From positions 1 to 64,000 of the forward strand of contig NZ_JAJLQX010000015.1 of the NCBI RefSeq assembly GCF_021295095.1: a stretch of 64,000 nucleotides of DNA, in the 5' to 3' direction. The notes under the pieces are model-generated. The model was given only the letters and a program-made list of their open reading frames with translations, made no database searches and was not told the DNA's origin. Shown here in pieces: positions 435-26,255 of this stretch. Position numbers and translations under genes: made by a program. Within the stretch, counting starts at the first letter, position 1. Each line of letters begins with the position of its first letter. This stretch comes from Phocaeicola oris. GTDB taxonomy: Bacteria; Bacteroidota; Bacteroidia; Bacteroidales; Bacteroidaceae.

Positions 435-556
435 TCATGCGGATGAGTTGCTCAACTCATCCGCATGAGTTTATCAACTGATACGCATGAACCGAGCAAC
501 TCATACGTATCAGTTTATTTGTTTGTACGTATCACTCTGATAATCGATATTCATGA
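435..556. repeat. 22-bp-period palindromic repeat array A
   Basis: Six 12-bp cores start at 435, 457, 479, 501, 523 and 545, exactly 22 bp apart: TCATGCGGATGA, TCATCCGCATGA, TGATACGCATGA, TCATACGTATCA, TTGTACGTATCA and CGATATTCATGA. Linkers are 10 bp and often end in CAAC. Because the cores are near-palindromic, the first two units also form a perfect 16-bp inverted repeat (435-450 with 453-468) around a 2-base centre. The similarity decays toward the right end. The array fills much of the gene-free stretch 216-588, between the transposase tail and the 3' end of upp; nothing else recognisable was seen there apart from the direct repeats at 361-405. Confidence 0.85.
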
Positions 557-588
557 ACATGTCAAGTGATAAGTTGGCTTCACTTATA

Positions 589-1248
589 TTATAGTTTATT
601 TCCGAATGCTAAGTCTCCTGCGTCACCTAATCCGGGAACAATATATTTATGTTCGTTCAGTATCGGATCGATAGCTGCACACCATAAAGTGGCTTTATCG
701 CCGGGGAACAGCTTTTCCAAGTGCTTTACACCCTCTTCACTGGCTATAACACAAGCGAAGTGTAGCCGTTTAGGAGTTCCTTTCGTGAGGAATGCTTTCC
801 ATGCCAATTCCATGCTTTCACCGGTAGCCAGCATAGGATCTACTAATAATAAAGTATGTTCGGATAAATCCGGCGCGGCAATGTATTCGATACGGACATC
901 AATCTCATGATTTCCTTTATCTTTATAATAGCGGTAAGCAGAAACGAATGCACAATCGGCTTGATCGAAGTAATTTAGGAATCCGGTTTGCAGAGGAAGA
1001 CCTGCGCGGAAAACAGTCGCGACAATTACTTTATCATCTGTTGTATTAACATCGGCAATACCCAAGGGAGTCTGTACTTTCTTGGTAGAGTAATCCATTG
1101 TTTTGCTAATTTCGTACGCCATAATTTCACCTATACGCTCGATGTTATGACGGAATCGCATCCGATTACCCTGTACTTTTACATCTCTTAGTTCAGCAAC
1201 AAATCTGTTGAGTATAGAGTTCGTTTTGCTTAGATTGTAAATTCTCAT
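589..1248 (-). CDS. upp: Uracil phosphoribosyltransferase
   Basis: 219-residue protein of the UPRTase family, converting uracil and PRPP to UMP in pyrimidine salvage in the cytoplasm. The PRPP-binding loop VDPMLATG is at about residues 136-143 and the uracil-binding segment IVPGLGDAGD at about 203-212, followed by the typical DLAFG end. Length is slightly above the usual 208-210. It is transcribed divergently from pckA with about 250 bases between them. A near-consensus -7 box on the minus strand (TTACTTTG, 1295 to 1288) may serve it. Its 3' end faces repeat array A. Confidence 0.95.
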   Translation of the reverse strand: MRIYNLSKTNSILNRFVAELRDVKVQGNRMRFRHNIERIGEIMAYEISKTMDYSTKKVQTPLGIADVNTTDDKVIVATVFRAGLPLQTGFLNYFDQADCAFVSAYRYYKDKGNHEIDVRIEYIAAPDLSEHTLLLVDPMLATGESMELAWKAFLTKGTPKRLHFACVIASEEGVKHLEKLFPGDKATLWCAAIDPILNEHKYIVPGLGDAGDLAFGNKL

Positions 1249-1408
1249 ATATATATTTAATTATCGAAATAAAAATGTAAACTCGGCAAAGTAACGAATT
1301 TTTTTTCAATTTGTAAAGTAGAAGTGGCAATTAATGTTATACAACTTTAAATCCGTTTCTATTAAGATAATATTTAATTATTAAATTCTTTTTATAAGAA
1401 TAATAAGT

Positions 1409-1416
1409 TAATTTTG
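1409..1416 (+). promoter_or_regulatory. Bacteroides-type -7 box for pckA
   Basis: TAATTTTG fits TAnnTTTG. The predicted start of transcription is about 75 bases upstream of the pckA ATG. No clear TTTG -33 box is seen at the expected distance, so this may be a weak or activator-dependent promoter. Confidence 0.5.
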
Positions 1417-1501
1417 CACTGAATTTTAAACGGTATGTTGAAAGATTACTAATAAGATTGATAAAACAGCAATTATAATATAATTTAATTCTTAAAAACA
1501 A

Positions 1502-3106
1502 ATGGCAAATTTAGATTTAGCAAAGTACGGAATTAAAGATGTAAAGGAAGTCCTTTACAATCCTACTTATGAGGTTTTGTTCAACGAAGAGACAAAGCCG
1601 GGTTTGGAAGGTTATGACAAAGGTCAGGAGACTGAGCTTGGTGCAATCAATGTAATGACAGGTGTTTATACCGGTCGTTCTCCTAAGGATAAATATATCG
1701 TTATGGATGAGAATGCAAAGGATACAGTATGGTGGAATACTCCGGAATATCCAAATGATAATCATCCTTTGTCAAAAGAGAATTGGGCCGTTTTGAAGAA
1801 ATTGGCTCAGGATCAGCTTTCAGGCAAGAGATTGTTTGTTGTTGATGGTTTCTGTGGCGCAAACAAAGATACTCGCATGAAAGTTCGTTTCATCGTAGAA
1901 GTTGCATGGCAGGCTCACTTCGTAACAAATATGTTCATCCGTCCACAGAATCAGGCTGAGTTCGATCAGGAACCTGATTTCGTTGTGTATTGTGCTTCCA
2001 AAGCAAAAGTTGAGAACTTTAAAGAGTTAGGCCTTCGTTCAGATACAGCTGTTGCATTTAACGTAACAAGCAAAGAGCAGGTTATCTTAAATACTTGGTA
2101 CGGTGGTGAAATGAAGAAAGGTATGTTCTCTATGATGAACTACTATTTACCATTGAAGGGCATTGCTTCTATGCACTGTTCTGCAAATACTGATATGAAC
2201 GGTGAGAATACAGCTATCTTCTTCGGTCTTTCCGGTACAGGTAAGACAACTTTGTCAACTGATCCTAAGCGTAAGTTGATTGGTGATGATGAGCACGGAT
2301 GGGATGACAATGGCGTATTTAATTTGGAAGGTGGTTGCTATGCTAAGGTTATCAATTTGGATAAGGAAGCCGAACCAGATATTTATGGCGCTATCACTCG
2401 TGACGCTCTTCTTGAGAATGTTACTGTTGACAAAGCTGGTAAGATTGATTTCGCAGATAAGAGCGTAACGGAGAATACTCGTGTTTCTTATCCTATTTAT
2501 CATATCCACAACATTGTACGTCCTATTTCTCATGCTCCGGCAGCAAAACAGGTTATCTTCCTGTCAGCTGATGCATTTGGCGTATTACCTCCGGTATCTA
2601 TCTTGAATGCCGAGCAGACTAAGTATTATTTCTTGTCTGGTTTCACGGCTAAGTTGGCAGGTACAGAGCGTGGCATTACAGAGCCTACTCCAACATTCTC
2701 TGCTTGCTTCGGTCAGGCATTCTTGGAATTACATCCGACTAAGTACGCTGATGAATTGGTTAAGAAGATGCAGAAGAGTAATGCGAAAGCTTATTTGGTT
2801 AACACCGGCTGGAACGGAACAGGCAAGCGTATTTCTATTCGCGATACTCGTGGTATTATTGATGCTATCTTAGATCACTCTATTGATCAGGCTCCTACAA
2901 AGACTATTCCTTATTTCAACTTTGTAGTTCCTACTCAGTTGAATGGCGTTGACCCACATATCCTTGATCCTCGTGATACTTATAAGGACGCTTCTGAATG
3001 GGATGTTAAGGCTAAGGATTTGGCCGGTCGTTTCATCAAGAATTTTGTTAAGTATGAAGGCAATGAGGCTGGAAAGGCATTGGTTGCTGCCGGTCCGAAA
3101 CTCTAA
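1502..3106 (+). CDS. pckA: ATP-dependent phosphoenolpyruvate carboxykinase
   Basis: 534 residues, the normal length for ATP-type PEPCK, which interconverts oxaloacetate plus ATP and PEP plus CO2 plus ADP. In Bacteroides the enzyme is thought to run toward oxaloacetate, fixing CO2 on the route to succinate and propionate. Visible motifs are TGRSPKDK near residue 57, the P-loop [11 protein letters not shown] near 242-252 and the metal-binding GDDEHGWD near 261-268. It stands alone, with its own -7 box upstream and a terminator hairpin downstream. The start ATG follows an AT-rich leader without a strong Shine-Dalgarno, as is usual in this group. Confidence 0.97.
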
Positions 3107-3131
3107 TAGAATTTATCTTTAGACTAAATAA

Positions 3132-3164
3132 AAGAGGGGAGTAACCAATGGTTGCTTCCCTCTT
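3132..3164 (+). terminator. Terminator after pckA
   Basis: A 15-bp stem (3132-3146 with 3150-3164, including G-U pairs) with a 3-base loop lies 25 bases after the pckA stop. The T tract is short, but the stem is strong. Confidence 0.7.
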
Positions 3165-3179
3165 ATTGTTTCATTAATA

Positions 3180-3839
3180 ATGAGGTATATGAAAAATCTA
3201 TTTGTAACCATATTGACTGTCCTCACGCTATTGATGCCGTCGTGTCAGTCAAAAGCTCAGTCTGATGCAACAACCGAGACTGTGCCTCAAAATGATGGTA
3301 AGAATGTGGTAGTCGAGACCATTATGGCTCGCCGAAGTATTCGTAAATACCACCCGCAAGCAGTGAACCGCGATACCATGAACATAGTTCTGAAGTGCGG
3401 TATAAATGCTCCCAGTGCAATGAATGTTCAAGATTGGGAAGTTCGTGTAGTCGATAATCAGGAATTTCTTAATGGCCTGACAACAATCTTTAAAGAGAAG
3501 AATAAGGAGATGGCTGAACGTGACAAGGAAATGAGGAATATGTTTCGTAATGCCCCGACAGTTGCTTTTATAGCAGCAAAAAAAGATTCAAAGTTCTCTT
3601 CTGTTGATTGCGCTTTAATGGCAGAGAATATGATGATTGCAGCCAAGTCAATGGGAATTGGATCTGTCTGTATGGCCGGACCGGTCGAATTTTTAAAAGG
3701 TCCGGATTGTGCGGACTATTTGAATAAACTGGGATTCAGTGATGATTATGAATTGTTGTTGACCATTGGTTTCGGTTATCCTGCAGAAGAACCGGCAGCC
3801 AAACCGAGAGATGAAAGCAAATGTAAATTCGTCGATTAA
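3180..3839 (+). CDS. Nitroreductase-family lipoprotein
   Basis: 219 residues. The N-terminus has a hydrophobic signal ending in LLMPSC, a lipobox with the acylated Cys at residue 22, so the product is probably a membrane-anchored lipoprotein. From about residue 43 it matches the nitroreductase fold: the flavin-binding start ARRSIRKY, NAPSAMNVQDW near 77-87, the segment CALMAENMMIAAKSMGIGSV and the end TIGFGYPAEEP. Such proteins bind FMN and reduce nitro compounds or quinones with NAD(P)H; a lipoprotein version would have to obtain both outside the cytoplasm, which is unusual. A second ATG at 3189 is an equally good start. Substrate unknown. Confidence 0.85.
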   Translation: MRYMKNLFVTILTVLTLLMPSCQSKAQSDATTETVPQNDGKNVVVETIMARRSIRKYHPQAVNRDTMNIVLKCGINAPSAMNVQDWEVRVVDNQEFLNGLTTIFKEKNKEMAERDKEMRNMFRNAPTVAFIAAKKDSKFSSVDCALMAENMMIAAKSMGIGSVCMAGPVEFLKGPDCADYLNKLGFSDDYELLLTIGFGYPAEEPAAKPRDESKCKFVD

Positions 3840-3858
3840 TAGATTTTGATATATAAGT

Positions 3859-3893
3859 AGAGTAGCGTTTTGATATGTTCAAAAGGCTACTCT
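3859..3893 (+). terminator. Rho-independent terminator after the nitroreductase gene
   Basis: AGAGTAGC (3859-3866) pairs with GCTACTCT (3886-3893); the inner GTTTTG/CAAAAG pair extends the stem across one mismatch. A TTTTT run follows directly. Confidence 0.85.
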
Positions 3894-3969
3894 TTTTATT
3901 TATTCTGTTTCTATGTATAAAAAGAATGTTAAATTCCATAGATTTTTTATCAAGTTGATAAAAATGAAC

Positions 3970-3977
3970 TATATTTG
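3970..3977 (+). promoter_or_regulatory. Bacteroides-type -7 box for the pnt operon
   Basis: TATATTTG fits TAnnTTTG and lies about 70 bases before the pntAA start, just after a terminator, so it marks the start of the operon. No good -33 box was seen. Confidence 0.55.
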
Positions 3978-4046
3978 AAGAAGTGAAAAAAGGAAGAATT
4001 TTTATTCTTTCCTCCATATTAAAAAATAACCTTAAATATAAGTATC

Positions 4047-5204
4047 ATGATTATTGGTATTCCAAAAGAAATTATGCATGACGAGAATCGTGTTGCATGT
4101 ACACCTGAAACAGTAAGTAAATTTGTTAAAGATGGTTTTGAAGTCTTAGTTGAAAAGCATGCTGGTGAAGGTGCTTTGTATCGTGATGAGGATTATATAG
4201 CAGCCGGAGCTAAAGTGTTAGCTGATCCTCAAGAGATATACGATAAGGCCGAACTGATTCTGAAAGTGAAAGAACCACTTTTCAACGACAAATTAGGTAA
4301 GCACGAAGTAGATATGATGCATAAAGGTCAGTATCTGATTACCTTTATTCATCCGGCATCTCCGGTCAATCATGAGATGGTGAAGAAGATGACGAAACAA
4401 GGTGTTATTGCGTTAACATTGGATTGTATTCCACGTATATCCAGAGCTCAAAGTATGGATGCGCTGACTTCTATGAGTACTTGTGCCGGATATAAAGGAA
4501 TCTTGATGGCTGCCGATCATCTGACAAAATTTATGCCTCAGATGTTTACTGCCGTAGGCAGGATAGAACCGGCAAAAGTGATGGTTATCGGTGTTGGTGT
4601 GGCAGGTCTTCAGGCTTTGGCAACAGCAAAACGTTTAGGTGCTGTGGTTTATGCGGCAGATATTCGTCCGATGGCTGTGGAAAATGCTCAGAGTTTAGGA
4701 GCAAAAATAGTAGATACTACCGTTCCAGAGGAGTTGGCTGTGGGTGAAGGTGGCTATGCAAAGAGCCTTCCGGAAGATGTATTAGCTAAAGAACGTGAAG
4801 CCTTAAAGAGTACTATCCAAGATATGGATATCGTATTTTGCTCCGTTCTTATCCCGGGAAAGATCGCTCCTATGATTATTACAGAAGATACTGTTAAGGG
4901 AATGAAGCGTGGTTCTGTTATCGTTGACATTGCTATTGATCAGGGAGGTAACTGCGAAATCACTCCGAAAGGGGCTATTGAGGTCAAGCATGATGTTACG
5001 CTCATTGGCATAAAGAATATTCCGGGAGAATTACCGCAAAGTTCAACTTGGATGTTCTCGAATAATATGTACAACTTGGTTAAATATTTGACCAAGGATG
5101 GTAATATTGTTTTGAATCGTGAAGACGAAATAGTAGCCAAAAGTTTGGTATGTATAGATGGAGAATTAGTTCACACCGGAGCTCGGGAAGCGATGGGCTT
5201 ATAA
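4047..5204 (+). CDS. pntAA: NAD(P) transhydrogenase subunit alpha, soluble NAD-binding part
   Basis: 385 residues, matching the separate dI domain of three-gene transhydrogenases. It binds NADH and passes hydride to NADP bound by PntB. It belongs to the alanine dehydrogenase/PNT family, beginning MIIGIPKEI, with the dinucleotide loop GVGVAG near residues 182-187. The membrane part of the alpha chain is the next gene, 9 bases downstream. The split-alpha layout is the one known from Rhodospirillum rubrum. Confidence 0.95.
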   Translation: MIIGIPKEIMHDENRVACTPETVSKFVKDGFEVLVEKHAGEGALYRDEDYIAAGAKVLADPQEIYDKAELILKVKEPLFNDKLGKHEVDMMHKGQYLITFIHPASPVNHEMVKKMTKQGVIALTLDCIPRISRAQSMDALTSMSTCAGYKGILMAADHLTKFMPQMFTAVGRIEPAKVMVIGVGVAGLQALATAKRLGAVVYAADIRPMAVENAQSLGAKIVDTTVPEELAVGEGGYAKSLPEDVLAKEREALKSTIQDMDIVFCSVLIPGKIAPMIITEDTVKGMKRGSVIVDIAIDQGGNCEITPKGAIEVKHDVTLIGIKNIPGELPQSSTWMFSNNMYNLVKYLTKDGNIVLNREDEIVAKSLVCIDGELVHTGAREAMGL

Positions 5205-5213
5205 TTTTCGCGT

Positions 5214-5525
5214 ATGATTGACCCAATTTTATTAGTCATTATATTTGTAGTGTGCACCGTGGTAGGATATTTTATTATCCGCACGGTGCCCAGTTTGCTT
5301 CACACTCCGTTAATGTCGGGTATGAATGCCTTGTCGGGAGTTACTATTGTTGGAGCCATCACAGCAGCAGGTGTTTCGTTATTGAATCCGTTTGGTTCGG
5401 TTTTGCTTTCTCAAATATTGGGATGTATAGCTATTATTCTGGCGGCTATTAATGTTGTTGGAGGTTTTATGGTTACCCACCGTATGCTCAAAATGTTTGA
5501 TAAAAAAGAAAAGGAGGATAAGTAA
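5214..5525 (+). CDS. pntAB: NAD(P) transhydrogenase subunit alpha, membrane part
   Basis: 103-residue hydrophobic protein with three to four predicted membrane helices and a short charged tail (DKKEKEDK). It corresponds to the dII membrane segment at the C-terminus of E. coli PntA, and forms part of the proton channel with PntB. Its stop codon overlaps the pntB start by one base (TAATG), so translation of the two is probably coupled. Confidence 0.93.
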   Translation: MIDPILLVIIFVVCTVVGYFIIRTVPSLLHTPLMSGMNALSGVTIVGAITAAGVSLLNPFGSVLLSQILGCIAIILAAINVVGGFMVTHRMLKMFDKKEKEDK

Positions 5526-6970
5526 TGGGGACAATACAGGTTATATTTAGTGTTATTCTTTCCATAGCTGTCCTTATCGGAATATCTATGATGAGCAAGG
5601 TGAAGACTGCTGTTACCGGAAACTTGATTTCTGCTTTGGCCATCCTGATAGGAATAGTCGCGACGTTGTTGTTAAGTGGAGTAGTGAGTGCGTGGACTAT
5701 ATATCCGGCAATGATCATAGGCTTACTGATAGGTAGTTTGATTGCCAGAAAGGTAAAAATGATACAAATGCCTCAGACGGTAGCATTGTTTAACGGATTA
5801 GGTGGCGGTGCTTCTGCGTTGGTTGGTATTATGACAGCTTTACTTTATGGCTTTACTGCGGAAGAGTTAAATGCTTTTTCTACCCATGGGGCGAAGTTTA
5901 TAATGTTTACGTCTCTTTTGGCAATTGCCGTGGGAATGACGACATTGATAGGTAGTTTGGTAGCTGCCGGTAAATTGAGCCGAATATTGAATCAGCGTCC
6001 GGTGATTTGGGCGGGGCATTCGGCTATCACTATATTGCTCATTATATTGACATTCATTTTCATTGTTTTAGGAACTATTGACGGATGGGTTAATGTATCC
6101 TATATAGTAGGAGTGTTAATTACTTCTTCGCTTTTTGGATTGTTTTTCTCCGTGAGGGTTGGTGGGGCAGATATGCCTATTACCATCTCATTGCTGAATT
6201 CTTTATCGGGTGTGGCAGGAGCTATTGCAGGTATGGCAATCAGTAATATTTTCCTTGTGGCTGTTGGTGGAATTGTTGGTGCATCAGGTTTGTTACTTAC
6301 TCAAATTATGTGTAGAGCGATGAATCGTAATTTAATGAGCATTCTTTTAGGCGGAACATCAAAGCAACCGGTAAATGTTCAGAAGGAGGAGAAATCGGCT
6401 GAGGAGAAGATAACAGACAGCCCTTCTGCTGAGGAAAGAGTGATAGAGGAAAAGCCTGTTGCTCAAAGGAGTCCGGGTGAAATTCTGGCTATGGCAAAAG
6501 ATGTGATCATTGTTCCGGGATATGGTATGGCTTTGGCACAGGCACAGCATTTAGTGAAATTATTGGCAGACAAATTAGCTGCTAAAGGGGTGAGAGTACG
6601 TTTCGCCATTCATCCGGTTGCCGGAAGAATGCCCGGACACATGAATGTTCTATTGGCTGAGGCTGATGTTCCATACGAACAACTCTTTGAGATGGAAACG
6701 ATAAATGAGGATTTTGCTAAGACAGATGCTGTGGTGGTGATTGGAGCTAACGATGTGATGAATCCGGCTGCACGAAATGCAGAAGGTACGCCTATATACG
6801 GTATGCCGGTATTGAGTGTTGATCAAGCACCGGAAGTAATCATCTGTAATTTTGACCTTAAACCGGGATATGCCGGTGTTGAGAATCCACTTTACTCGAG
6901 AAAAGAAGGCGTTTATTTGTTGTTAGGTGACGCAAAAGAGAGTTTAAATAAGCTGATAACTCAGTTTTAA
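5525..6970 (+). CDS. pntB: NAD(P) transhydrogenase subunit beta
   Basis: 481 residues. About the first 270 are a bundle of membrane helices (dII), followed by a charged linker near 285-315 and the NADP-binding dIII domain, which begins around IIVPGYGMALAQAQH and contains the conserved GRMPGHMNVLLAEADVPY and VIGANDVMNPAA segments. The complex couples proton entry to reduction of NADP by NADH, supplying NADPH for biosynthesis. Last gene of the pntAA-pntAB-pntB operon, followed by a large hairpin. Confidence 0.96.
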   Translation: MGTIQVIFSVILSIAVLIGISMMSKVKTAVTGNLISALAILIGIVATLLLSGVVSAWTIYPAMIIGLLIGSLIARKVKMIQMPQTVALFNGLGGGASALVGIMTALLYGFTAEELNAFSTHGAKFIMFTSLLAIAVGMTTLIGSLVAAGKLSRILNQRPVIWAGHSAITILLIILTFIFIVLGTIDGWVNVSYIVGVLITSSLFGLFFSVRVGGADMPITISLLNSLSGVAGAIAGMAISNIFLVAVGGIVGASGLLLTQIMCRAMNRNLMSILLGGTSKQPVNVQKEEKSAEEKITDSPSAEERVIEEKPVAQRSPGEILAMAKDVIIVPGYGMALAQAQHLVKLLADKLAAKGVRVRFAIHPVAGRMPGHMNVLLAEADVPYEQLFEMETINEDFAKTDAVVVIGANDVMNPAARNAEGTPIYGMPVLSVDQAPEVIICNFDLKPGYAGVENPLYSRKEGVYLLLGDAKESLNKLITQF

Positions 6971-6992
6971 ATAGAGTTTCTTGTGCTGTAAG

Positions 6993-7067
6993 AAGGGTGT
7001 TTCATTATGAAGTGTCTTCGAAAGTTAGATAAAAACTTTCAAGGTTCACTTCATTTGATACACCCTT
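6993..7067 (+). terminator. Large nested hairpin after pntB
   Basis: Three nested stems pair in order: AAGGGTGT (6993-7000) with ACACCCTT (7060-7067), ATGAAGTG (7007-7014) with CACTTCAT (7047-7054), and GAAAGTT (7020-7026) with AACTTTC (7034-7040). The right arm ends in TTTTG. It is longer than a normal terminator and abuts an insertion-sequence relic, so it could also be part of a mobile element. Confidence 0.6.
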
Positions 7068-7070
7068 TTG

Positions 7071-7362
7071 CTTATGGATAACGGAGGTGAATTAGCCGAG
7101 CTTTTTGGGATAGCTAAAAAGCTGGAAGTAATGTGTTTATTACTATCGACTTTTACGCTTTATGGCGGAAGGGTGTTGTGAAAATACGAATAAACTTATT
7201 AGACAATACATACTAAAAGAATCTGATATCAGCACTATTACAAACGAGAATATTAAGAGAATGCAAGCTAAAATAAATAGAAGGCCAAAGGAAGAACTGA
7301 AATTTTCTATACCCACCAAGGAGTTTTTTTATATTATGCTTAATATTACATTTGTTGGTTGA
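7071..7362 (+). pseudogene. IS30-family transposase relic (frameshifted C-terminal part)
   Basis: Two reading frames together resemble the end of an IS30/IS4351-type transposase. DNGGELAE...IAKKLEVMC is encoded from 7077 onward in one frame, which then hits stops. The other frame, open from 7162, gives ENTNKLIRQYILKESDIS, then ENIKRMQAKINRRPKEELKFSIP and KEFF, the well-known C-terminal end of that family. The N-terminal two thirds are absent and the frame is broken between the parts, so the gene is dead. The next stretch, 7363-7513, holds no gene I recognise. The relic marks the left border of a G+C-richer segment. Confidence 0.75.
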
Positions 7363-7513
7363 TTCTTTAACACTTAAAAAAAAACACAAACTCAACTGAG
7401 TAGCGGCTACTATTTTGAACTGGTGTCCATTCTGAGCAAGCAAAGTTGCAGAACTCCACTAATTTGTTGTGACCTTATTTCCGTGAATTAAGTTCATCGC
7501 TCATGCGCCTTTG

Positions 7514-8962: not shown

Positions 8963-8998
8963 ATTGTTCTGAATTTATGTTTTGTTTGTTTATTGTTG

Positions 8999-9006
8999 CA
9001 AAGTTA
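8999..9006 (-). promoter_or_regulatory. -7 box for the aldo-keto reductase gene
   Basis: On the minus strand the sequence reads TAACTTTG (TAnnTTTG), about 37 bases upstream of the ATG. No -33 TTTG was found, consistent with activation by a regulator. Confidence 0.55.
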
Positions 9007-9072
9007 TGTCAAGTATTTATATGAGTTGTTATATAATTTAAGGACGTATTTTTACAATTCAAGGTTTCTTGT

Positions 9073-9080
9073 TATATTTG
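9073..9080 (+). promoter_or_regulatory. -7 box for the AraC-family gene
   Basis: TATATTTG fits TAnnTTTG, giving a leader of about 80 bases. It faces the opposite promoter at 8999-9006, so the 205-base gap between the genes is a likely site of shared control. Confidence 0.5.
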
Positions 9081-9167
9081 TATAATATAGGTTGCGCTCA
9101 GGTAATTTGAAAGCAAATTTTCATTGCGCTCGCTTGCACAATCTTTATTCAAAAGGAGACATTATAA

Positions 9168-10214: not shown

Positions 10215-10336
10215 CGATGTATATGAACATGGAAAGTGATACGTATGAGTTGGGTGATTCATCCGCATGAGTTGCTCGATTGATGCTGATGAGTTACTCG
10301 ATTCATCCGTATGAGTTGGGCGATTCATCCGCATCA
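10215..10336. repeat. 22-bp-period palindromic repeat array B
   Basis: Six 12-bp cores start at 10215, 10237, 10259, 10281, 10303 and 10325, exactly 22 bp apart: CGATGTATATGA, TGATACGTATGA, TCATCCGCATGA, TGATGCTGATGA, TCATCCGTATGA and TCATCCGCATCA. Linkers such as GTTGCTCGAT, GTTACTCGAT and GTTGGGCGAT are themselves conserved. The first unit with its neighbour matches the last unit of array A (CGAT...ATGAACATG...AAGTGAT), so arrays share edges as well as cores. The array lies in the 665-base gene-free stretch 9975-10639; apart from a promoter near 10590 I see nothing else there. Confidence 0.87.
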
Positions 10337-15018: not shown

Positions 15019-15025
15019 TTACTCT

Positions 15026-16974: not shown

Positions 16975-16990
16975 AAAACAATTCTTTTTG

Positions 16991-17078: not shown

Positions 17079-17200
17079 TCATCTCCGTCAATCGTTCAAC
17101 TCGTCCGCATGAATCGTTCAACTCGTCCGCATGAATCGTTCAACTCATCCGCATGACTTGTCCAACTCATCCGCATGAATTTCTTAACTAATCTTTATAA
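17079..17200. repeat. 22-bp-period palindromic repeat array C
   Basis: Cores start at 17079, 17101, 17123, 17145, 17167 and 17189, exactly 22 bp apart: TCATCTCCGTCA, TCGTCCGCATGA (twice), TCATCCGCATGA (twice) and TAATCTTTATAA. The middle four are near-identical and the outer two decayed. Linkers are ATCGTTCAAC (three times), CTTGTCCAAC and ATTTCTTAAC, all ending AAC. The array sits in the 432-base gap 16975-17406 between divergent genes (LicD and an outer-membrane protein). The rest of the gap holds two promoters and nothing else I can name. Confidence 0.9.
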
Positions 17201-17352: not shown

Positions 17353-17382
17353 TTTGACCTATAATCTTTTTGTGTATGTTTG
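17353..17382 (+). promoter_or_regulatory. Consensus Bacteroides promoter for the outer-membrane protein gene
   Basis: TTTG at 17353-17356, 18-base spacer, TATGTTTG at 17375-17382. The predicted transcription start (about 17389) lies after two earlier in-frame ATGs (17380 and 17386) and before the one at 17407, which supports 17407 as the true start. Confidence 0.75.
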
Positions 17383-17406
17383 CAAATGAACAAAAATAGT
17401 ACGCTT

Positions 17407-17988: not shown

Positions 17989-17997
17989 TGTGAGAGA

Positions 17998-20457
17998 TTG
18001 AAACAGTTTGTTAATGTTATAGTGCCGTTGCCGATAGCCGGTCTGTACACTTATTCCGTTCCGAAAGAAATGGAAGGTCAGGTACAGGTCGGTTGTCGTG
18101 TTATTGTACCTTTCGGAAAGAAGAAGTTCTACACGGCAGTAATTATTAAGGTGCATCACATAGCTCCGGAAGGTTATAAGACGAAAGATATTGAAGAAGT
18201 GCTCGATTCCAGCCCTATCTTATATGCGTATCAGTTTGATTTCTGGAAGTGGATAGCGTCGTACTATTTATGTACGGTGGGCGATGTGCTGAAAGCAGCT
18301 TTACCTTCAGGAATGAAGTTGGCAAGTGAGACAAGAGTTATTTGTAATACGGATTATGAGGCGGATGTACCTTTGACAGAAAAGGAACAGCAGATATTGA
18401 ATGTGCTTGAAAAAGATAAGGAGTTGATGTTGAATCAGTTGGAACGTATGACAGGTTTAAAGAACCTGTTATCGGGCATCAATTCTTTATTGGATAAAGG
18501 GGCTATATATGTGAAAGAAGAGATAAAGCGGACTTATAAACCAAAGCTGGAAGCTCGTGTCCGACTGAAGGGAACCCCGACAGAACAGCAATTGTATATA
18601 TTGTTTGATGTATTGAGCAGGGCACCTAAGCAATTGAACCTGTTGATGAAATATATCGAACTTTCGAAATGGACAAGTGGCTCAGAGAATCTGTTAGAGG
18701 TAACGAAAAATAATCTGTTGGAGCAGGCAAATGCATCTGCTACTCATTTGAAAGGATTGGTTGATAAAGGCATTTTTCAAATTTACTTTCAAGAGATTGG
18801 GCGATTAAAGAAGAACAGTAAGTGGGATGCCGTATTAAACCCATTGAATACATCGCAACAAGCTGCATATCAAACTATAAAAGAACGTTTTGAAGAGAAA
18901 GATGTCTGTCTTCTGCACGGAGTGACATCCAGTGGAAAAACGGAAATCTATATTCATTTAATCAATGAAGCAATTCTGCGGGGAAAACAAGTGCTTTATC
19001 TGTTGCCAGAGATAGCTTTGACCACTCAGATTACGGAACGTTTGTATCGTGTGTTCGGAGATAAGTTGGGTGTGTATCATTCTAAATATCCGGACGCTGA
19101 GCGTGTTGAAGTCTGGCAAAAACAGTTGAGCAAACACCCGTATCAAGTGATTCTCGGAGTGCGCTCATCCATATTTCTGCCTTTTCAGAATTTGGGACTT
19201 GTCATTATTGATGAGGAACATGAGAATACGTATAAACAACAGGATCCGGCTCCGCGCTATCATGCACGGAGTGCAGCTATCATGTTGGCTCATTCGTTTG
19301 GAGCAAAGGTGCTTTTGGGTACAGCAACTCCAAGTATTGAAAGTTATTTCAATGCCATGACCGGTAAATATGGAATGGTTGAATTGCAAGAGCGTTACAA
19401 AGACATGGAGCTTCCGGAGATTGAAGTTGTTGACACGAAGGAATTGGCTCGGAAAAAGATGATGGCCGGACCGTTTTCTCCTCGTTTGATTGAGGAAATG
19501 AAGAAAGCGCTTGAGAATAATCAGCAAGTTATTTTATTTCTTAATCGGAGAGGTTTTGCTCCGATGATAGAATGCAATGTCTGCGGATGGGTTCCAAGGT
19601 GTGAACATTGCGATGTGAGTCTCACTTATCACCGAGGATTGAAGCAATTGACTTGTCATTACTGCGGATGCTCCTATTCTGTACCGGAAGTATGCCCGGC
19701 ATGTGGCAGTACCGACTTGGTTAACAGGGGATTTGGTACGGAACGTATTGAAGATAATGTGAAAGAAATCTTCCCTAAGGCAAAAGTTGTCCGCATGGAC
19801 TTGGATACAGCGAAGAGTCGTACAGCTTATGAGCGGATTATCTCTGATTTTGCGGAAGGTAGAACAGATATTCTTATTGGAACACAGATGGTTTCGAAAG
19901 GACTGGATTTTGATCGTGTCAGTGTGGTAGGTATTATAAATGCGGATAGCATGTTAAATTATCCTGATTTTCGAAGTCATGAGCGGGCGTTCCAATTGAT
20001 GGCTCAAGTGGCAGGACGAGCGGGGAGAAAAGGGAAACGTGGGCTGGTAATCCTTCAGACCAAGTCGCCGGATATGCCGGTAATCAAACAAGTGGTAGAG
20101 AACAATTACGATGATATGTATAATGACCAGTTGGCCGAACGTCAACTTTTCAGGTATCCTCCATATAATCGTTTGATTTATGTCTACTTGAAACATAAAA
20201 AGGAGAATATCCTTAATCAGGCAGCCGAAGAGATGGGCAATATGTTACGGGGTGGCATGGGAGAACGCATTCTTGGTCCGGACAAACCACTTGTTGCCCG
20301 AGTACAGACTTGGTTTATTAAAAAGATAATGATAAAGATAGAACCTCAAGCATCCATGATCAAAGTTCGAAAGTATCTATTGTTTGTTCAATCACAACTT
20401 TTGCTGGATGACCGGTTCCGTGGCTTACAGGTTTATTATGATGTAGACCCTCAGTAA
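17998..20457 (+). CDS. priA: Primosomal protein N', replication-restart helicase
   Basis: 819 residues. PriA reloads the replisome at stalled forks. The N-terminal DNA-binding domain starts at KQFVNVIVPLPIAGLYTYSVP; Walker A GVTSSGKT is near 305-312, the DEEH box near 404-407, and eight zinc-binding cysteines (CNVC, CEHC, CHYC, CPAC) near 526-572. The only plausible start is TTG at 17998: the in-frame upstream codon TAA lies only 9 bases before it, and the next in-frame ATG would cut into the conserved N-terminus. It converges on the PgpH-like gene with one base between the stops. Confidence 0.95.
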   Translation: MKQFVNVIVPLPIAGLYTYSVPKEMEGQVQVGCRVIVPFGKKKFYTAVIIKVHHIAPEGYKTKDIEEVLDSSPILYAYQFDFWKWIASYYLCTVGDVLKAALPSGMKLASETRVICNTDYEADVPLTEKEQQILNVLEKDKELMLNQLERMTGLKNLLSGINSLLDKGAIYVKEEIKRTYKPKLEARVRLKGTPTEQQLYILFDVLSRAPKQLNLLMKYIELSKWTSGSENLLEVTKNNLLEQANASATHLKGLVDKGIFQIYFQEIGRLKKNSKWDAVLNPLNTSQQAAYQTIKERFEEKDVCLLHGVTSSGKTEIYIHLINEAILRGKQVLYLLPEIALTTQITERLYRVFGDKLGVYHSKYPDAERVEVWQKQLSKHPYQVILGVRSSIFLPFQNLGLVIIDEEHENTYKQQDPAPRYHARSAAIMLAHSFGAKVLLGTATPSIESYFNAMTGKYGMVELQERYKDMELPEIEVVDTKELARKKMMAGPFSPRLIEEMKKALENNQQVILFLNRRGFAPMIECNVCGWVPRCEHCDVSLTYHRGLKQLTCHYCGCSYSVPEVCPACGSTDLVNRGFGTERIEDNVKEIFPKAKVVRMDLDTAKSRTAYERIISDFAEGRTDILIGTQMVSKGLDFDRVSVVGIINADSMLNYPDFRSHERAFQLMAQVAGRAGRKGKRGLVILQTKSPDMPVIKQVVENNYDDMYNDQLAERQLFRYPPYNRLIYVYLKHKKENILNQAAEEMGNMLRGGMGERILGPDKPLVARVQTWFIKKIMIKIEPQASMIKVRKYLLFVQSQLLLDDRFRGLQVYYDVDPQ

Positions 20458-20458
20458 G

Positions 20459-22567
20459 TTATTTCTTCTCTTCGTTTTCTTTTTCATTCGGTACCTCAAG
20501 CAGCTTTGTGTCACCTTTTAATTCCGGATAACTGATTCGTGTATGGTACATCGTCTTCAGTTTTTCCTTGAAAAGTTCTTTGACATTAGCTATATCGGCA
20601 AAAGTGATAGGACATTCTTTAAAGAAACCTTCATCCACCTGAGCATCAATAATTTTATCCACCAAATTACTGATGCTTTCCTCGGTATATTCTTTTAGAC
20701 TGCGTGAAGTAGCTTCTATGGCGTCAGCCATCATCAGAATGGCTTGTTCTTTCGTGTACGGATTTGGTCCCGGATAACGGAACGGTGTATCATCTATTTC
20801 TTCGTTCGGATGCTCATTTTTATACATGATATAGAAATACTTTGTAACTCCGCGTCCGTGATGGGTAGGGATAAAGTTCTTTACCTCAAGCGGCAAGCGA
20901 TGTTTTTCTGCTAATTTATATCCGTCGGTAACATGACTGATAATAATCTTAGCACTCTGCATGTAGGTTAATTTCTTATGTGGATTGAATCCCGACTGAT
21001 TTTCTGTAAAGAAAGCCGGATTGACCATTTTTCCGATATCATGATATAATGCTCCGGTACGAACTAACTGGGCTTTGGCACCAATCTTGTTTGCGGCTGC
21101 AGCAGCCAAGTTGGACATTTGAAGTGAGTGCTGGAATGTGCCCGGCGCAACTTCTGAAAGCTCGCGAAGCAAAGGATTATTGATATTTGACAACTCGACC
21201 AATGTAACGTTGGAAGTGAAGCCGAATAGCTTTTCTACCAGATAGAGCAAAGGGTAGGTGAACAACAATAATACACTGTTAATGACAAAGTAAACATACA
21301 TGCCAATGTTGAGGTTCAGCGTTCCTGACTGACGCGTCAGCTCAAGAGAAAAATAAGTCAGGCAGTAGCTTCCTAACACAATGAAAGCCGACTGAAAAAG
21401 TTGCGATCGTTGCGACAATTCACGTAAACTGAATATAGCCGCATAACTTGCCACTATCTGAAGCATAATGAAGTCTACTTGGTTATGTAACGGGATGGAA
21501 CTTAACAATATAATGATTATTTGAGCGGCCATAGCCGTTCGAGAATCAAGGAATATACTGATAAAGATGGCGCTCATAGCGAATGGCACCACATAGATGC
21601 TTACTATGTTATGTTGTAATGCAAATGCGGCGATCACGGGGAAAATTATTATCAGCGAGATCAGTAGCAACATAGTATTCTTTTTTTGATAATATTCTTT
21701 GCGGAACAGCTCTAAATATATCATGAAGATCATCAATAGAATACCGACAAATAAAGCTTGACCGATGGTCATGATCTGTTTCTCTTTCAGGGAACTGCTT
21801 CTGTTTGACCATTCTTTTTTTAATGATTCCAAGATGTTGAATGTCTGTTCATTGACAATTTCGCCACGATCGATGATTTTCTGACCATTCAGTACATAAC
21901 CGTTTGCCCATGATACCGTGGAGAGTAAGTCTTTCTTTGCTTCTTCCGATTTGTCTGCATTGTAAACTAAGTTAGGAGTGATGTAGTCGTTTAAGTCGCA
22001 TTGTTGAAGAATTTCTTTTTTGTAATGTGTGGTATCAGCTTCTAACAACTGTTCATAGGCCTGTTTTGAACTAAGAAACTGACTTAGAGAGAAACTAATG
22101 GCTGTATTCTCGTTGACCAAGCGGATAGATTTCACATTGTTCTTTTCCATTTGCTCTAAGTCAGTCACCGAAATAATACCGTCCTGATAAATCATGTGGA
22201 GCATACGCTCTATGTAAAAATAGTATTCGTGGTTGGGCAACTTTTTCTTCAACACCTTCTCATAGTCCGCCTTCAGTTTTGACAGCATATCTTTTTCTAC
22301 ACTATTATCAATGTGAAAGTATGGCTGATATTGTGTCATGATGCTGTCCTGCTCTTTTTGGACTTGTTCATCATTTTTGTAGATAGGGAAGTCGAACATC
22401 GCTTGGAGTAATCCGTACCGCCATGGGCGATTTATCTCAAACTGATAGTTAAAGCTGCTTCCTTTGGGCAGAAAGTAGACAATAACCGTCACCGCGAAGA
22501 CAAATATAAGGATCTTATATAGAAAATCTTTGCTGAAGATTTTTCTTTTCTTATCGGAACTTCTCAT
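20459..22567 (-). CDS. 7TM-HD family phosphodiesterase (PgpH-like)
   Basis: 702 residues. One N-terminal membrane helix (about 15-32) is followed by an extracytoplasmic 7TMR-HDED domain (about 35-270), a block of seven or so membrane helices (about 275-455) and a cytoplasmic HD domain. HSLQMSNLAAAAA and LYHDIGK near 503-510 give the metal-binding His/Asp pairs. The domain order is that of PgpH, which hydrolyses cyclic di-AMP; this activity is inferred from the family, not shown. It probably turns an outside signal into second-messenger breakdown. The end is highly charged (NEKENEEKK). Confidence 0.88.
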   Translation of the reverse strand: MRSSDKKRKIFSKDFLYKILIFVFAVTVIVYFLPKGSSFNYQFEINRPWRYGLLQAMFDFPIYKNDEQVQKEQDSIMTQYQPYFHIDNSVEKDMLSKLKADYEKVLKKKLPNHEYYFYIERMLHMIYQDGIISVTDLEQMEKNNVKSIRLVNENTAISFSLSQFLSSKQAYEQLLEADTTHYKKEILQQCDLNDYITPNLVYNADKSEEAKKDLLSTVSWANGYVLNGQKIIDRGEIVNEQTFNILESLKKEWSNRSSSLKEKQIMTIGQALFVGILLMIFMIYLELFRKEYYQKKNTMLLLISLIIIFPVIAAFALQHNIVSIYVVPFAMSAIFISIFLDSRTAMAAQIIIILLSSIPLHNQVDFIMLQIVASYAAIFSLRELSQRSQLFQSAFIVLGSYCLTYFSLELTRQSGTLNLNIGMYVYFVINSVLLLFTYPLLYLVEKLFGFTSNVTLVELSNINNPLLRELSEVAPGTFQHSLQMSNLAAAAANKIGAKAQLVRTGALYHDIGKMVNPAFFTENQSGFNPHKKLTYMQSAKIIISHVTDGYKLAEKHRLPLEVKNFIPTHHGRGVTKYFYIMYKNEHPNEEIDDTPFRYPGPNPYTKEQAILMMADAIEATSRSLKEYTEESISNLVDKIIDAQVDEGFFKECPITFADIANVKELFKEKLKTMYHTRISYPELKGDTKLLEVPNEKENEEKK

Positions 22568-22617
22568 AATAATTATTTATTTTGGTCGCAAATTACGAAA
22601 AAATCGGGAATTTAGAT

Positions 22618-22625
22618 TAAATTTG
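22618..22625 (+). promoter_or_regulatory. -7 box for gltX
   Basis: TAAATTTG, fitting TAnnTTTG, is 26 bases upstream of the gltX ATG. No clear -33 box. Confidence 0.55.
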
Positions 22626-22650
22626 CAACGTATTTTTATCATGGATTATA

Positions 22651-24168
22651 ATGGCTGAAAGAAAAGTTAGAGTTCGTTTTGCTCCGAGTCCGACAGGACC
22701 GTTGCATATTGGTGGTGTTCGTACAGCGTTGTATAACTATTTGTTTGCAAAACAGCATGGAGGTGATCTCATTTTCAGAATAGAAGATACAGATTCGAAT
22801 CGCTTTGTGCCGGGAGCGGAAGATTATATATTGGAATCTTTCAAATGGTTGGGTATCAAGTTCGATGAGGGTGTTGGCTTTGGTGGAAGTTACGGACCTT
22901 ACCGTCAATCGGAACGCCGTGATATATATAAGAAGTATGTTCAGGTCTTGCTGGATAATGGAACGGCATACATTGCTTTTGATACGCCTGAAGAGTTGGA
23001 TAAAAAACGTGAGGAGATTAAAAACTTTCAATATGATGCTACTACCCGTATGTCAATGCGTAATTCGCTCTCTCTCTCAAATGAAGAGGTTGATTCGTTG
23101 ATTGCTGCCGGTAATCAGTATGTTGTTCGTTTTAAGATAGAGCCGAATATAGATGTTCATGTACAAGATATTATTAGGGGTGATGTGGTTATTAACTCAT
23201 CTATACTGGACGATAAAGTGCTTTATAAGTCGGCCGACGAGTTGCCCACTTATCATTTGGCAAATATTGTTGATGACCATTTGATGGAGGTTACACACGT
23301 TATCCGCGGTGAGGAGTGGCTTCCGTCAGCTCCTTTACATGTCTTGCTTTATAAAGCTTTCGGATGGGAAGATACAATGCCTCAGTTTGCGCATCTACCG
23401 TTGTTGCTTAAGCCGGAAGGTAACGGAAAACTGAGTAAGCGTGACGGTGATCGTCTCGGTTTCCCTGTATTTCCATTGGAATGGCATGATCCGAAGACGG
23501 GAGAAAAGTCTTCAGGTTATCGGGAGGCAGGTTATCTGCCGGAGGCTGTATTGAACTTCCTGGCACTTTTGGGGTGGAATCCGGGAAATGATCAGGAGAT
23601 TCTTTCGATGGATGAGTTGATCAGCATGTTCCGTCTGGAACATTGTAGTAAGTCGGGAGCTCGTTTCGACTATGAGAAAGCGAAGTGGTTTAACCACGAA
23701 TACATATTGCTCATGGATGATGAAAAGTTGGCCGATTTGTTCACCCCTATGATGAAAGAACATGATATAGAGGCTCCGCGCGAAAAAGTTGTTACGGTTC
23801 TTGGAATGATGAAAGAGCGGGTTAGTTTTGTGAAAGATTTGTGGGACACCTGCAAGTTCTTCTTTATTGCTCCGACGGAGTATGACGAGAAGACACGCAA
23901 GAAACGCTGGAAAGAAGATTCAGCTAAGTGCATGACGGAACTCGCTGATTTGCTGGAGAGTCTTAACGATTTCTCTTTGGAGAATCAGGAAAAGGTGGTT
24001 ATGAAATGGATTGAGGATAAAGGTTACAACACAGGTAACATTATGAATGCTTTCCGTTTGACATTGGTAGGCGAAGGAAAGGGACCACACATGTTTGATA
24101 TTTCTTCAGTGCTCGGCAAGGAGGAGACTATCCGCCGTATGCGTCGTGCTATAGATATACTAAAATAG
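22651..24168 (+). CDS. gltX: Glutamyl-tRNA synthetase
   Basis: 505 residues of class I aminoacyl-tRNA synthetase, charging tRNA-Glu with glutamate. HIGH motif appears as [11 protein letters not shown] (12-22) and the KMSKS equivalent as KLSKRDGD (about 260-267). The C-terminal anticodon-binding region is present, and the length is normal for the bacterial enzyme. waaA follows 19 bases later, so they are probably co-transcribed. Confidence 0.96.
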
Positions 24169-24187
24169 GACGAAAAGCAGTAGGCGA

Positions 24188-25411
24188 ATGTATAATTTTG
24201 CGATATTATTATATTTATTAGGGGTGAAAATTGCTGCTTTCTTTCAGCCGAAGTCAAAAGCAGCGAGAATGGTGAAGGGGCATCAGGAGGTATTCTCTTT
24301 GTTAAAGGAGAAGATTGATCCGAATGCCCGCTATCTTTGGTTTCATGCAGCATCGTTGGGAGAGTTTGAACAGGGACGTCCCTTGATAGAATGGATTCGG
24401 ACGAACTATCCGGAATATAAAATTCTTCAGACATTCTTTTCGCCTTCAGGCTATGAAGTGCGTAAAGATTATAAGGGAGCCGACGTGGTGTGCTATTTAC
24501 CTTTCGATACTCCGCGTAACGCTCGTCGTTTTGTTGAGCTTGCCCATCCGTATATGGCGTTCTTTATCAAGTACGAGTTCTGGCATAATTACCTGAGCCA
24601 GTTGAAAAAACGGAATGTGTTTGTGTATAGTGTCTCTTCTATCTTCCACCCAAATCAGATCTTTTTTCGTTGGTATGGTTGTTCTTATCGTAATGTACTG
24701 AAATGTTTTACAGAACTGTTTGTGCAGAATCAATGCTCGAAGGATTTGCTGAGTGGTATCAACATAAATAATACGATGATTGTGGGTGATACCCGTTTCG
24801 ATAGAGTGCTTGATATCTATAAGGCTTCTAAGCAGTTACCAATAGTTGAACAATTTAAGGGCAATAGTATGACGATGGTTGCCGGAAGTTCGTGGGGACC
24901 GGACGAAGACATCTTTATTGATTATTTTAACCGTCATCCGGAGATAAAACTCATTATAGCGCCTCATGTAGTAAACGACGCGCGTCTGACAGAAATAAAG
25001 TCGAAGTTGAGACGTACGACTGTTTTATATACTCAGGCGACCGACGAGAATGTAAAACAGGCCGATTGCCTGATTATTGATTGCTACGGCTTACTTTCGT
25101 CTATTTATCGTTATGGCGAAATAGCTTATGTGGGCGGTGGCTTCGGAGTGGGCATTCATAATGTGCTCGAAGCTGCTGTTTATGGTATTCCGGTTATCTT
25201 TGGCCCTAATAATAAGAAGTTTCGTGAGGCTCGGCATTTACTGGAGGCGAAAGGTGGTTTCGAGATTGTCGATGCAGCCGGTTATGATTTGCTCATGAAT
25301 AGGTTTCTGAAAGATAAGCATTTTCTTATTGAGGCAGGGGAGGCTGCCGGAGGGTATGTGAAGAATAATTCCGGTGCTGCTCAAAGGATTTTGGAAACAA
25401 TTGAGTTTTAG
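24188..25411 (+). CDS. waaA: 3-deoxy-D-manno-octulosonic acid (Kdo) transferase
   Basis: 407 residues, GT30 family. A membrane anchor at the N-terminus (MYNFAILLYLLGVKIAAFF) precedes the GT-B domains. WFHAASLGEFEQGRPLI near 50-67 holds the catalytic Glu of the family, followed by FFSPSGYEVRKDY; GGGFGVGIHNVLEAAVYGIPVIFGPNNKKF lies in the CMP-Kdo domain and is clear in the C-terminal third. It adds Kdo to lipid A in the inner membrane. After it, 25412-26392 is a long gene-poor stretch described under the next entries; 25412-25651 shows nothing I can name. Confidence 0.94.
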   Translation: MYNFAILLYLLGVKIAAFFQPKSKAARMVKGHQEVFSLLKEKIDPNARYLWFHAASLGEFEQGRPLIEWIRTNYPEYKILQTFFSPSGYEVRKDYKGADVVCYLPFDTPRNARRFVELAHPYMAFFIKYEFWHNYLSQLKKRNVFVYSVSSIFHPNQIFFRWYGCSYRNVLKCFTELFVQNQCSKDLLSGININNTMIVGDTRFDRVLDIYKASKQLPIVEQFKGNSMTMVAGSSWGPDEDIFIDYFNRHPEIKLIIAPHVVNDARLTEIKSKLRRTTVLYTQATDENVKQADCLIIDCYGLLSSIYRYGEIAYVGGGFGVGIHNVLEAAVYGIPVIFGPNNKKFREARHLLEAKGGFEIVDAAGYDLLMNRFLKDKHFLIEAGEAAGGYVKNNSGAAQRILETIEF

Positions 25412-25651
25412 ACAGACATAAGAATAAGACGTATTGATAAGGTGGATTCTCTTTTAGGTTATTCATTGAAATTATACCACTTACTATTCAATTTATTTTA
25501 CCATTTTGTCTTATCAATAAAGAGTCTGCTTTTTCAGGTTTTCGTACCGTGTTTCGTATTCGGGAATGAAGAATACAACCCGTTCATTTTTTTTCTTGTT
25601 ATTCGAAAAAGCGGGCTTTGGATATATCAAAACATCGTTTTGATTTTTTTT

Positions 25652-26137
25652 AGGTGTCACAGGTGTCATAGGTGTCATATAGGCTATCTCTGACACCTTC
25701 TTTAGGATTTTTGTGTTCTTTATATACTACTTTCTTTGTGGGAAATAAGTTTATTTTTGACAAACTTTTTCAAAGCTCTACTATAAGTGCTTTTTGAAAA
25801 TGTGCTTCTTTCGGGTAACCCAAAATTCCCTCTGGTGTAAATCATATCCAAGAGGATAGAGAATACTCCCCCATTGCTTTTAGTCGGCTGCATTTCCTCT
25901 ATTCTGCCGGGCAATAAGATGAACAGTGCCGCACAAAGCAAAACATCACATTCTCTATCGGTATTCGCTGCATTTATTATTGTAAGCAAAAATTGAATAA
26001 AATTGGTGTAATTACAACGGGCATGAAGGATAGTATACTAATGGGAGTTCTATTATATCTTCTTGTTAATCAATATTTTATATATTTCTTCGGTATCAGA
26101 AAGAGCCTATATGACACCTATGACACCTGTGACACCT
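25652..26137. repeat. 486-bp segment bounded by 34-bp perfect inverted repeats
   Basis: A 34-base sequence at 25652-25685 is repeated exactly, in inverted orientation, at 26104-26137. It is built of three tandem units of the form TRTGACACC plus TATAGGCT-type ends; similarity continues inward for about 15 more bases with mismatches. The layout resembles a small non-autonomous transposable element, but I see no target-site duplication outside the repeats and no transposase in the window that would match. The segment contains a minus-strand reading frame (25720-25989) described separately. Confidence 0.75.
25720..25989 (-). pseudogene. Possible relic of a DUF3987/VirE-type protein
   Basis: Up to about 89 codons. 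The stretch IINAANTDRECDVLLCAALFILLPG resembles the beginning of the DUF3987 domain found in Bacteroides primase/VirE-like proteins, in which a helix with EKDVLLL precedes a small-residue segment. What follows (SKSTYSRALKKFVKNKLISHKESSI) I do not recognise. There is no good start codon or promoter, and it lies within the inverted-repeat segment. It may be a decayed fragment or a chance reading frame. Confidence 0.25.
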
Positions 26138-26177
26138 GCGTGTTAATTAAATTTATCATCAAAATGCTGGAGAAAAG

Positions 26178-26255
26178 TGCTCCGTATGAGTTGACTAACT
26201 CATACGTATGAACAGACCAATTCATGCGTATGAATCGCTCAACTCATACGGATGA
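26178..26255. repeat. 22-bp-period palindromic repeat array D
   Basis: Four cores start at 26178, 26200, 26222 and 26244, exactly 22 bp apart: TGCTCCGTATGA, TCATACGTATGA (a perfect palindrome), TCATGCGTATGA and TCATACGGATGA. Linkers are GTTGACTAAC, ACAGACCAAT and ATCGCTCAAC. Weaker traces continue to about 26295. It lies 40 bases from the inverted-repeat segment, in the 981-base gap between the convergent waaA and gamma-carbonic-anhydrase genes. Confidence 0.85.

Follow-up and report, generated by a model that had tools for sequence, protein, structure and literature searches.

The stretch of 64,000 nucleotides analysed here (hereafter the window) is taken from the genome of the Bacteroidaceae species Phocaeicola oris (contig NZ_JAJLQX010000015.1, positions 1 to 64,000) and carries five arrays of short palindromic units repeated every 22 bp. 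Four of them share one core family (A), and the fifth, with a different core (B), lies directly before a gene for a protein of the HU-HIG family, i.e., a group of Bacteroidota proteins in which an HU/IHF-like dimerising domain would be fused to a winged helix; the name reportedly goes back to a comparative-genomics paper by Burroughs and co-workers from 2017. The arrays, whose limits in the case of family A enclose in-register units with at most two mismatches per unit, and the HU-HIG gene with its candidate promoter element are arranged as follows:

435..534, no strand: array 1, family A (core TCATNCGNATGA), five units in 22-bp register, four strong and one decayed
10237..10336, no strand: array 2, family A, five units, flanked by two plus-strand open reading frames (ORFs)
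17101..17178, no strand: array 3, family A, four units, in a divergent intergenic region
26178..26255, no strand: array 4, family A, four units, in a convergent intergenic region
44751..45419, minus strand: HU-HIG gene, 222 amino acids, matching PF18291 at E 2.7e-27, with an HU/IHF-like domain at residues 2-120 and a C-terminal helical part at about residues 131-200
45444..45451, minus strand: candidate -7 promoter element TAACTTTA, which departs from TAnnTTTG at a single letter
45455..45534, no strand: array 5, family B (core TTTCACN4GTGA), four units spaced in register at 22 bp, of which the fourth is weaker, between positions -36 and -115 relative to the start codon of the HU-HIG gene

The initial annotation of this DNA had described the four family A arrays as free of any slip in the 22-bp register, which is confirmed for all four; the limits it gave for arrays 1 to 3 (435-556, 10215-10336, 17079-17200) include decayed edge units, and those of array 4 are unchanged. 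The single core form that it proposed describes these four arrays, but the family is wider and the fifth array, with its different core, had been missed. Among the 32 TCATnCGnATGA-like cores of the window (at most one mismatch), 13 pairs stand at a spacing of 22 and nine at 44, all other spacings between 13 and 59 are empty, and no pair at 22 arose when the window was shuffled 100 times with its dinucleotides preserved. Across the whole genome (G000; 2.98 Mb in 50 contigs, 95% complete), the scan that had been proposed as a check returned 686 type A dimers at 22-bp spacing (at most three mismatches) against none for the reversed pattern, so that a chance origin of the 22-bp pairing is excluded. 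An Rfam scan of the window at gathering score found five tRNAs and nothing else. CRISPR repeats measure about 25-40 bp and alternate with unique spacers of similar length, an architecture ruled out here by the 12-bp cores and 10-bp semi-conserved linkers (cas genes were not searched). A 9-bp repeat (TGACACCTA-like) also forms two short arrays in the window, at 25651-25679 and 26110-26137, the second of which adjoins array 4.

The neighbour of array 5 is a member of PF18291 by score (95.7 bits at a gathering cut-off of 26.2, profile positions 3-123 of 125), matches NCBIfam TIGR01201 HU_rel under the cut-off of that family (E 3e-14) and has HU and IHF, i.e., DNABII proteins, as its nearest solved structures by sequence (best E 0.003). 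An AlphaFold model built from 6 sequences is confident for the HU part, with a predicted local distance difference test score of about 90 at residues 31-80, and places three C-terminal helices at lower confidence. The sole match of the C-terminal part is a weak one to PF25213 (0.024), and one paralog in the same genome (C16) matches HTH_IclR above cut-off (5.7e-6); we read this part as a putative winged helix-turn-helix (wHTH) domain, a wHTH being among the fusions that the description of PF18291 lists. In a search for viral relatives of the window protein, five stretches fitted a pattern, none of which was confirmed by tblastn. Array 5 begins 36 bp upstream of the start codon and, given that the -7 promoter consensus of Bacteroidota is TAnnTTTG, the candidate element TAACTTTA would put the -33 region inside the nearest array-5 unit.

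This arrangement recurs at the other HU-HIG genes. The genome of P. oris holds five of them besides three plain HU matches; all four long ones have an array directly upstream, of period 22 (B, C or a third core) or period 23, each with a different core, and the single short one has none. PF18291 matches, by a profile that also detects plain HU, occur in 60 of 60 genomes searched, our own included. From these we assembled a genus set of 90 HU-HIG genes, a subset of the best-scoring matches, which together with the five own genes comprises 65 long (at least 185 amino acids) and 30 short genes. A first look with Tandem Repeats Finder (TRF) had located arrays with a period of 21-23 before 18 of the 30 genes that were fetched first. 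Upstream of the 65 long genes (four of them our own) the autocorrelation at lag 22 reaches 0.433 (median 0.269, z 24), with harmonics at lags 44 (z 15) and 66 (z 7.5), and the peak stays when only 33 non-redundant long genes are considered (z 24.4). No such peak was found at -600 to -300, within or downstream of the long genes, or upstream of the 30 short ones. By a segment test, 50 of the 65 long genes and 3 of the 30 short genes carry a 22-bp array; before the long genes it starts at a median of about -149 and ends at about -54, and 33 of the 50 segment-positive arrays have four-unit length. The dyad symmetry of the upstream motifs exceeds the 95th percentile of the null in 44 of 49 cases. 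A perfect TAnnTTTG lies between array end and start codon in 12 of the 50 (0.9 expected), ten of these falling from 8 bp before to 22 bp after the array end, and where it is present a bound protein would cover the -33 region. Upstream of the short genes we noted a lag-10 signal (z 6.0) and repeats of 10 or 20 bp at two loci (L194, L200). Strong PF18291 matches (E <1e-13) among those listed for 99 genomes of the class come from our own genome, from the other two members of its GTDB family and from a single additional genome, in which the best match is a short protein.

The upstream motif follows the protein sequence. Over 49 genes, motif similarity and protein identity are correlated (Mantel r 0.70, p ~0.002, 500 permutations), with a similarity of 0.27 below 25% identity (null 0.28) that rises up to 0.94 above 95% identity. 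For one motif, dispersed arrays and an HU-HIG gene with that motif occur together across genomes. Dimers of ACACGnnCGTGT number 13-85 in 12 of 60 genomes and 0-5 in the other 48 (control 0-1), and an HU-HIG gene with the ACACGnnCGTGT motif upstream was found in 10 of the 12 array-rich genomes versus none of 28 others for which HU-HIG genes had been fetched (Fisher 8e-8); for the remaining two array-rich genomes (G005, G457) no such gene is among those fetched. In two relatives (G018, G463) we followed 20 dispersed ACACG arrays; with the tolerance applied, 19 consist of exactly four units and the remaining one of three. All 20 lie outside ORFs, 17 are located within ~110 bp of the 3' end of one, and six occupy convergent gaps, one such gap being defined by an 81-amino-acid ORF.

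From our point of view, the 22-bp arrays are probably tandem-dimer binding arrays of autoregulated HU-HIG (HU-wHTH) proteins, and the dispersed arrays probably serve as nucleoid sites. We observe the position, period, symmetry and unit number of the arrays, their association with HU-HIG genes, the motif-gene association across genomes and the core conservation at one site, and we infer binding, with one HU-HIG dimer per palindromic unit, cooperativity, self-repression and an architectural role of the dispersed arrays. The two winged helices of a dimer would read the core half-sites (CAT/ATG or CAC/GTG around 4 bp), and the HU body would clasp and bend the DNA. With one unit every two helical turns (22 bp; 21 or 23 in some paralogs), usually four dimers could be stacked cooperatively on one face of the helix. 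An array with a protein's own core over the promoter region of most long HU-HIG genes would most likely allow that protein to repress itself, and dispersed arrays with the same core, from a few to more than 100 per genome, would serve as nucleoid sites that are addressed by their sequence and that the same protein bridges or bends. In P. oris, some A arrays and the majority of the B arrays sit in mobile elements with ends of the IS982 type, which have spread them.

The anatomy of the units was examined in a sample of 849 kb, i.e., the window and 40 further stretches of the genome, with genes called by ORF length only. Here 22 is the commonest tandem period (81 TRF rows), and at least three core families are present, namely A, B and C (CACGCACGTG); genome-wide, 113 type B pairs lie on one strand and 117 on the other, with none in the control. 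The 49 A arrays analysed contain 276 units, 3-8 per array, with the core TCAT-V-CG-B-ATGA, C or G as the usual letter at positions 2 and 11, T at position 5 in 1 and A at position 8 in 2 of the 276 units, and a linker that is mostly GTTGNNCRRY. The half-sites vary independently of each other (C-G at pair 2-11 in 127 units, 126 being expected from the column frequencies) and their constraint is mirror-symmetric, not complementary. This independence fits two protein subunits on double-stranded DNA, unlike a base-paired stem, and bears on an account according to which single units, or two units together, form hairpins in the transcript that act as terminators or stabilise its 3' end. For such hairpins it can be said that the GTTG..CRRY linkers pair with G-U on one strand, the strand being chosen by GTTG count (at the four linker pairs, GU in 116, 62, 94 and 35 and AC in 15, 11, 8 and 22 of 227), and that a collapsed site in a close species (G022, L289) consists of a lone unit, a near-perfect hairpin followed by a run of T's, which has possibly turned into a terminator. 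The missing covariation at pair 2-11, G-G or C-C at 5-8 in 113 of the 276 units, the divergent sites and the arrays in promoter regions before HU-HIG genes all speak against it. The remark of the initial annotation on perfect hairpins thus has no covariation support at the core pairs, RNA hairpins as main explanation fail on the mirror symmetry, and we consider the account very improbable.

The position of the arrays relative to genes bears on a more conventional reading, in which an HU-HIG protein binds the dispersed arrays so as to switch the neighbouring genes, architecture being secondary. Among the 49 A arrays, 19 lie between tandem, 17 between convergent and 8 between divergent genes, one is within an ORF and four are at stretch ends, which bears out the earlier claim that the arrays are intergenic in every relative orientation. 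The presence of arrays at HU-HIG promoter regions, and of some dispersed arrays in divergent gaps or upstream of genes, is what a regulon would predict. However, the A, B and C arrays of P. oris, taken together, lie at a median of 214 bp from 5' ends, compared with 166 bp for intergenic positions drawn at random, 17 of the 44 placed A arrays are convergent where 22% would be expected, and most ACACG arrays of the relatives adjoin 3' ends, with six of the 20 being convergent. A regulon therefore seems to us a rather doubtful account, albeit one whose probability overlaps with that of the favoured reading. It is because of their place (gene ends and convergent gaps, not promoters), together with the HU fold, that a nucleoid role is the most likely one for the dispersed arrays, as one of the earlier suggestions had it, and the suggestion of an operator set fits the arrays before HU-HIG genes.

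The A and B arrays are also unevenly distributed over contigs, with no A and eight B clusters on C3 (exact hits) and 25 A arrays and one B array on C11 (sample); permutation gives p 0.007 for contigs C1-C10, 0.008 for the sampled contigs and <=5e-5 combined (20,000 permutations). Such unevenness would be expected of territory marks, and local hopping of mobile elements could equally yield it. A regular spacing of the A arrays on C11 was considered and dropped (coefficient of variation of the intervals 0.79 versus 0.94 at random, p 0.18).

At one convergent site, where what we read as an alpha/beta hydrolase gene faces one for NAD synthase, the array can be followed through eight close species. 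It is kept in six of them, 34-39 bp past the stop codon, and the departures are a reduction to a single unit (G022) and a loss of the array (G471). Between the five orthologous copies with four units, the ten core letters differ in 5% of comparisons, the central NN in 54% and the linkers in 36%; for the left flank the figure is 24% (four copies). The core value is biased downwards, given that up to 2 of the 10 letters were allowed to mismatch when the units were located. The stronger divergence of core NN and linkers than of the left flank (L286-L293) hints at exchange between arrays. At 22 less similar loci no ACACG units were found, including those of three genomes that bear arrays elsewhere (G023, G457, G476), and in three of the 22 a different sequence gives a weak 22-lag stretch.

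A third account holds that the arrays are selfish minisatellites within a miniature inverted-repeat transposable element (MITE), moved by an IS982-family transposase and of no function to the cell. Common flanks of the arrays indeed led to four elements of 390-462 bp with both inverted ends TAACGTGARTTCGAYGAA, a terminal repeat with 65 matches genome-wide over both strands (control 0). Of the 49 A arrays, 17 are flanked by a MITE head or tail, as are 10 of the 12 B arrays, and in one chimera (L016:1188-1849) a MITE tail with a B array is joined to the start of an IS982-family transposase, which hints at the parent insertion sequence of the MITE. A precedent is BrickBuilt, a MITE of Porphyromonas gingivalis with a 23-nt consensus AGAYCATARTATCCTCTCRTRTG and ends like those of the IS5-family elements ISPg1 and ISPg9 (PMC4596501). 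BrickBuilt likewise is intergenic, has terminal inverted repeats and carries, enclosed by a leader and a tail, tandem repeats whose length is similar, and it also occurs in Bacteroidales (PMC4596501). Set by eye against the AGAYCATARTATCCTCTCRTRTG consensus, the repeats described here differ in their period of 22 and palindromic cores, and their MITE ends are of the IS982 and not the IS5 type. Further differences are that 32 of the 49 A and all six C arrays are without detected MITE flanks and that arrays stand before HU-HIG genes. Since only part of the arrays carries the flanks, MITE spread is an incomplete explanation: it accounts in part, having spread some A arrays and the majority of the B arrays, and the earlier idea of a spreading satellite holds for the MITE-flanked arrays and not for the others. 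In G018 and G463, moreover, homology between non-orthologous array loci is limited to ~90-120 bp around the array (three locus pairs are wholly or partly orthologous). Together with the near-constant number of four units in these two genomes, the core letters kept at the orthologous site and the arrays before HU-HIG genes in many species, this makes a purely selfish origin unlikely in our opinion.

The question arises which protein would bind the type A arrays of the window. Type A pairs (at most two mismatches) number 1-5 in six of 59 genomes of the same genus and order versus 585 in our own, and an exact search across the phylum for pairs at any gap of 2-24 found none in 394 other genomes, so that type A is rare outside scattered lineages. 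At least 46 type A stretches were obtained from public genome contigs, including metagenome-assembled genomes (MAGs) named as Bacteroidaceae and Prevotellaceae, and two from a viral scan. An HU-HIG gene lies within ~640 bp of the array in four of five stretches that we take to belong to the class Flavobacteriia and on one viral contig; the neighbouring pairs are from Flavobacterium, Aequorivita, Chryseobacterium, Mesonia, the viral contig and the Bacteroidaceae MAG RGIG7311. In the latter (L117), a long HU-HIG gene is preceded by a type A array of four units, the end of which lies 86 bp upstream, and since this MAG supplies 16 of the at least 46 public stretches, RGIG7311 too has many dispersed type A arrays. 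No type A pairs were found near the fetched HU-HIG genes of the genus, and at the fetched loci of HU genes in P. oris type A cores are confined to one (L143), where a four-unit array and a canonical HU gene are ~800 bp apart. PF14848, another family of the HU type, was considered as type A binder and discarded, its three matches being PF18291 genes already known. Two observations from the public scan concern other repeats: a MAG from a different phylum (Spirochaetia; L130) contains 23-bp arrays of TTTCATACGTATGACGGGGGTAA-like and other units, and the Prevotellaceae MAG hRUG897 (L088, L100, L103, L120, L132) harbours several further repeat families of 21 and 22 bp.

Several of these results weigh against the favoured reading. 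None of the PF18291 matches in the genome of P. oris is an HU-HIG gene with a type A array, and a hidden Markov model search detected an HU-HIG gene in only 6 of the 48 type A stretches; as such, the link to HU-HIG for the four arrays initially annotated runs via family resemblance and RGIG7311. The unit number of the A arrays is not fixed in P. oris, and at the orthologous site the array is absent from two of the eight close species and from the three array-rich, less similar genomes. Among the long HU-HIG genes, 15 of 65 fail the 22-bp test, including C16, the array of which has period 23; five of the 15 (L136, L157, L162, L172, L198) have arrays of 21, 22 or 23 bp that were recognised by eye only. 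TAnnTTTG with one mismatch shows no excess (21 of 50, 18.6 expected), and part of the Mantel correlation would be expected simply because a gene and its upstream DNA descend together. Lastly, one near-complete genome (G470), sampled over 800 kb in 40 stretches for an attempt to map arrays relative to origin and terminus, returned nine TRF rows of period 22 and a single array of the L147 motif, and large dispersed sets are hence not general. What the initial annotation had proposed as cooperative binding of a dimeric protein on one helix face is nevertheless consistent with the half-site constraint, the arrays at HU-HIG genes, the motif-protein link and the conserved core, and would then be the work of HU-HIG proteins.

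Among known systems, MatP-matS, ParB-parS, SlmA-SBS and Noc-NBS offer the concept of a sequence-specific dimer with an architectural role at dispersed palindromic sites of the chromosome. They differ in that their sites are mostly single, their folds are unrelated and there is usually one protein per genome, whereas here four-unit arrays, several paralogs and different cores are found. The BIME and REP elements of enterobacteria are intergenic palindromes in small tandem groups, often by the 3' ends of genes and in some cases bound by IHF or gyrase, but they have another unit length, are tied to RAYT transposases and are not arrayed at the promoter of a DNA-binding protein that recognises them. 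HU and IHF themselves are DNA-bending proteins that shape nucleoids; canonical HU lacks sequence specificity, and to our knowledge IHF sites are not arranged as four-unit palindromic arrays. The literature, which we searched at the level of listings, yielded no description of HU-HIG operator arrays. One could speculate, tentatively, that each HU-HIG paralog reads a four-unit code of its own and thereby organises its own part of the chromosome, with array-capturing MITEs rewiring the map.

Overall, if the favoured reading is true, HU, the textbook case of a non-specific architectural protein, would have a branch, with many paralogs in a large genus, that carries a DNA-reading domain, uses a palindromic code specific to each paralog and occupies four-dimer arrays both at its own promoter and at intergenic sites that may number more than 100; nucleoid architecture, gene regulation and mobile elements would be joined in one testable system. 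It would further explain a class of intergenic repeats that is otherwise taken for minisatellites, and the DNA upstream of an HU-HIG gene would provide a simple genomic rule by which the DNA code of uncharacterised proteins may be read.

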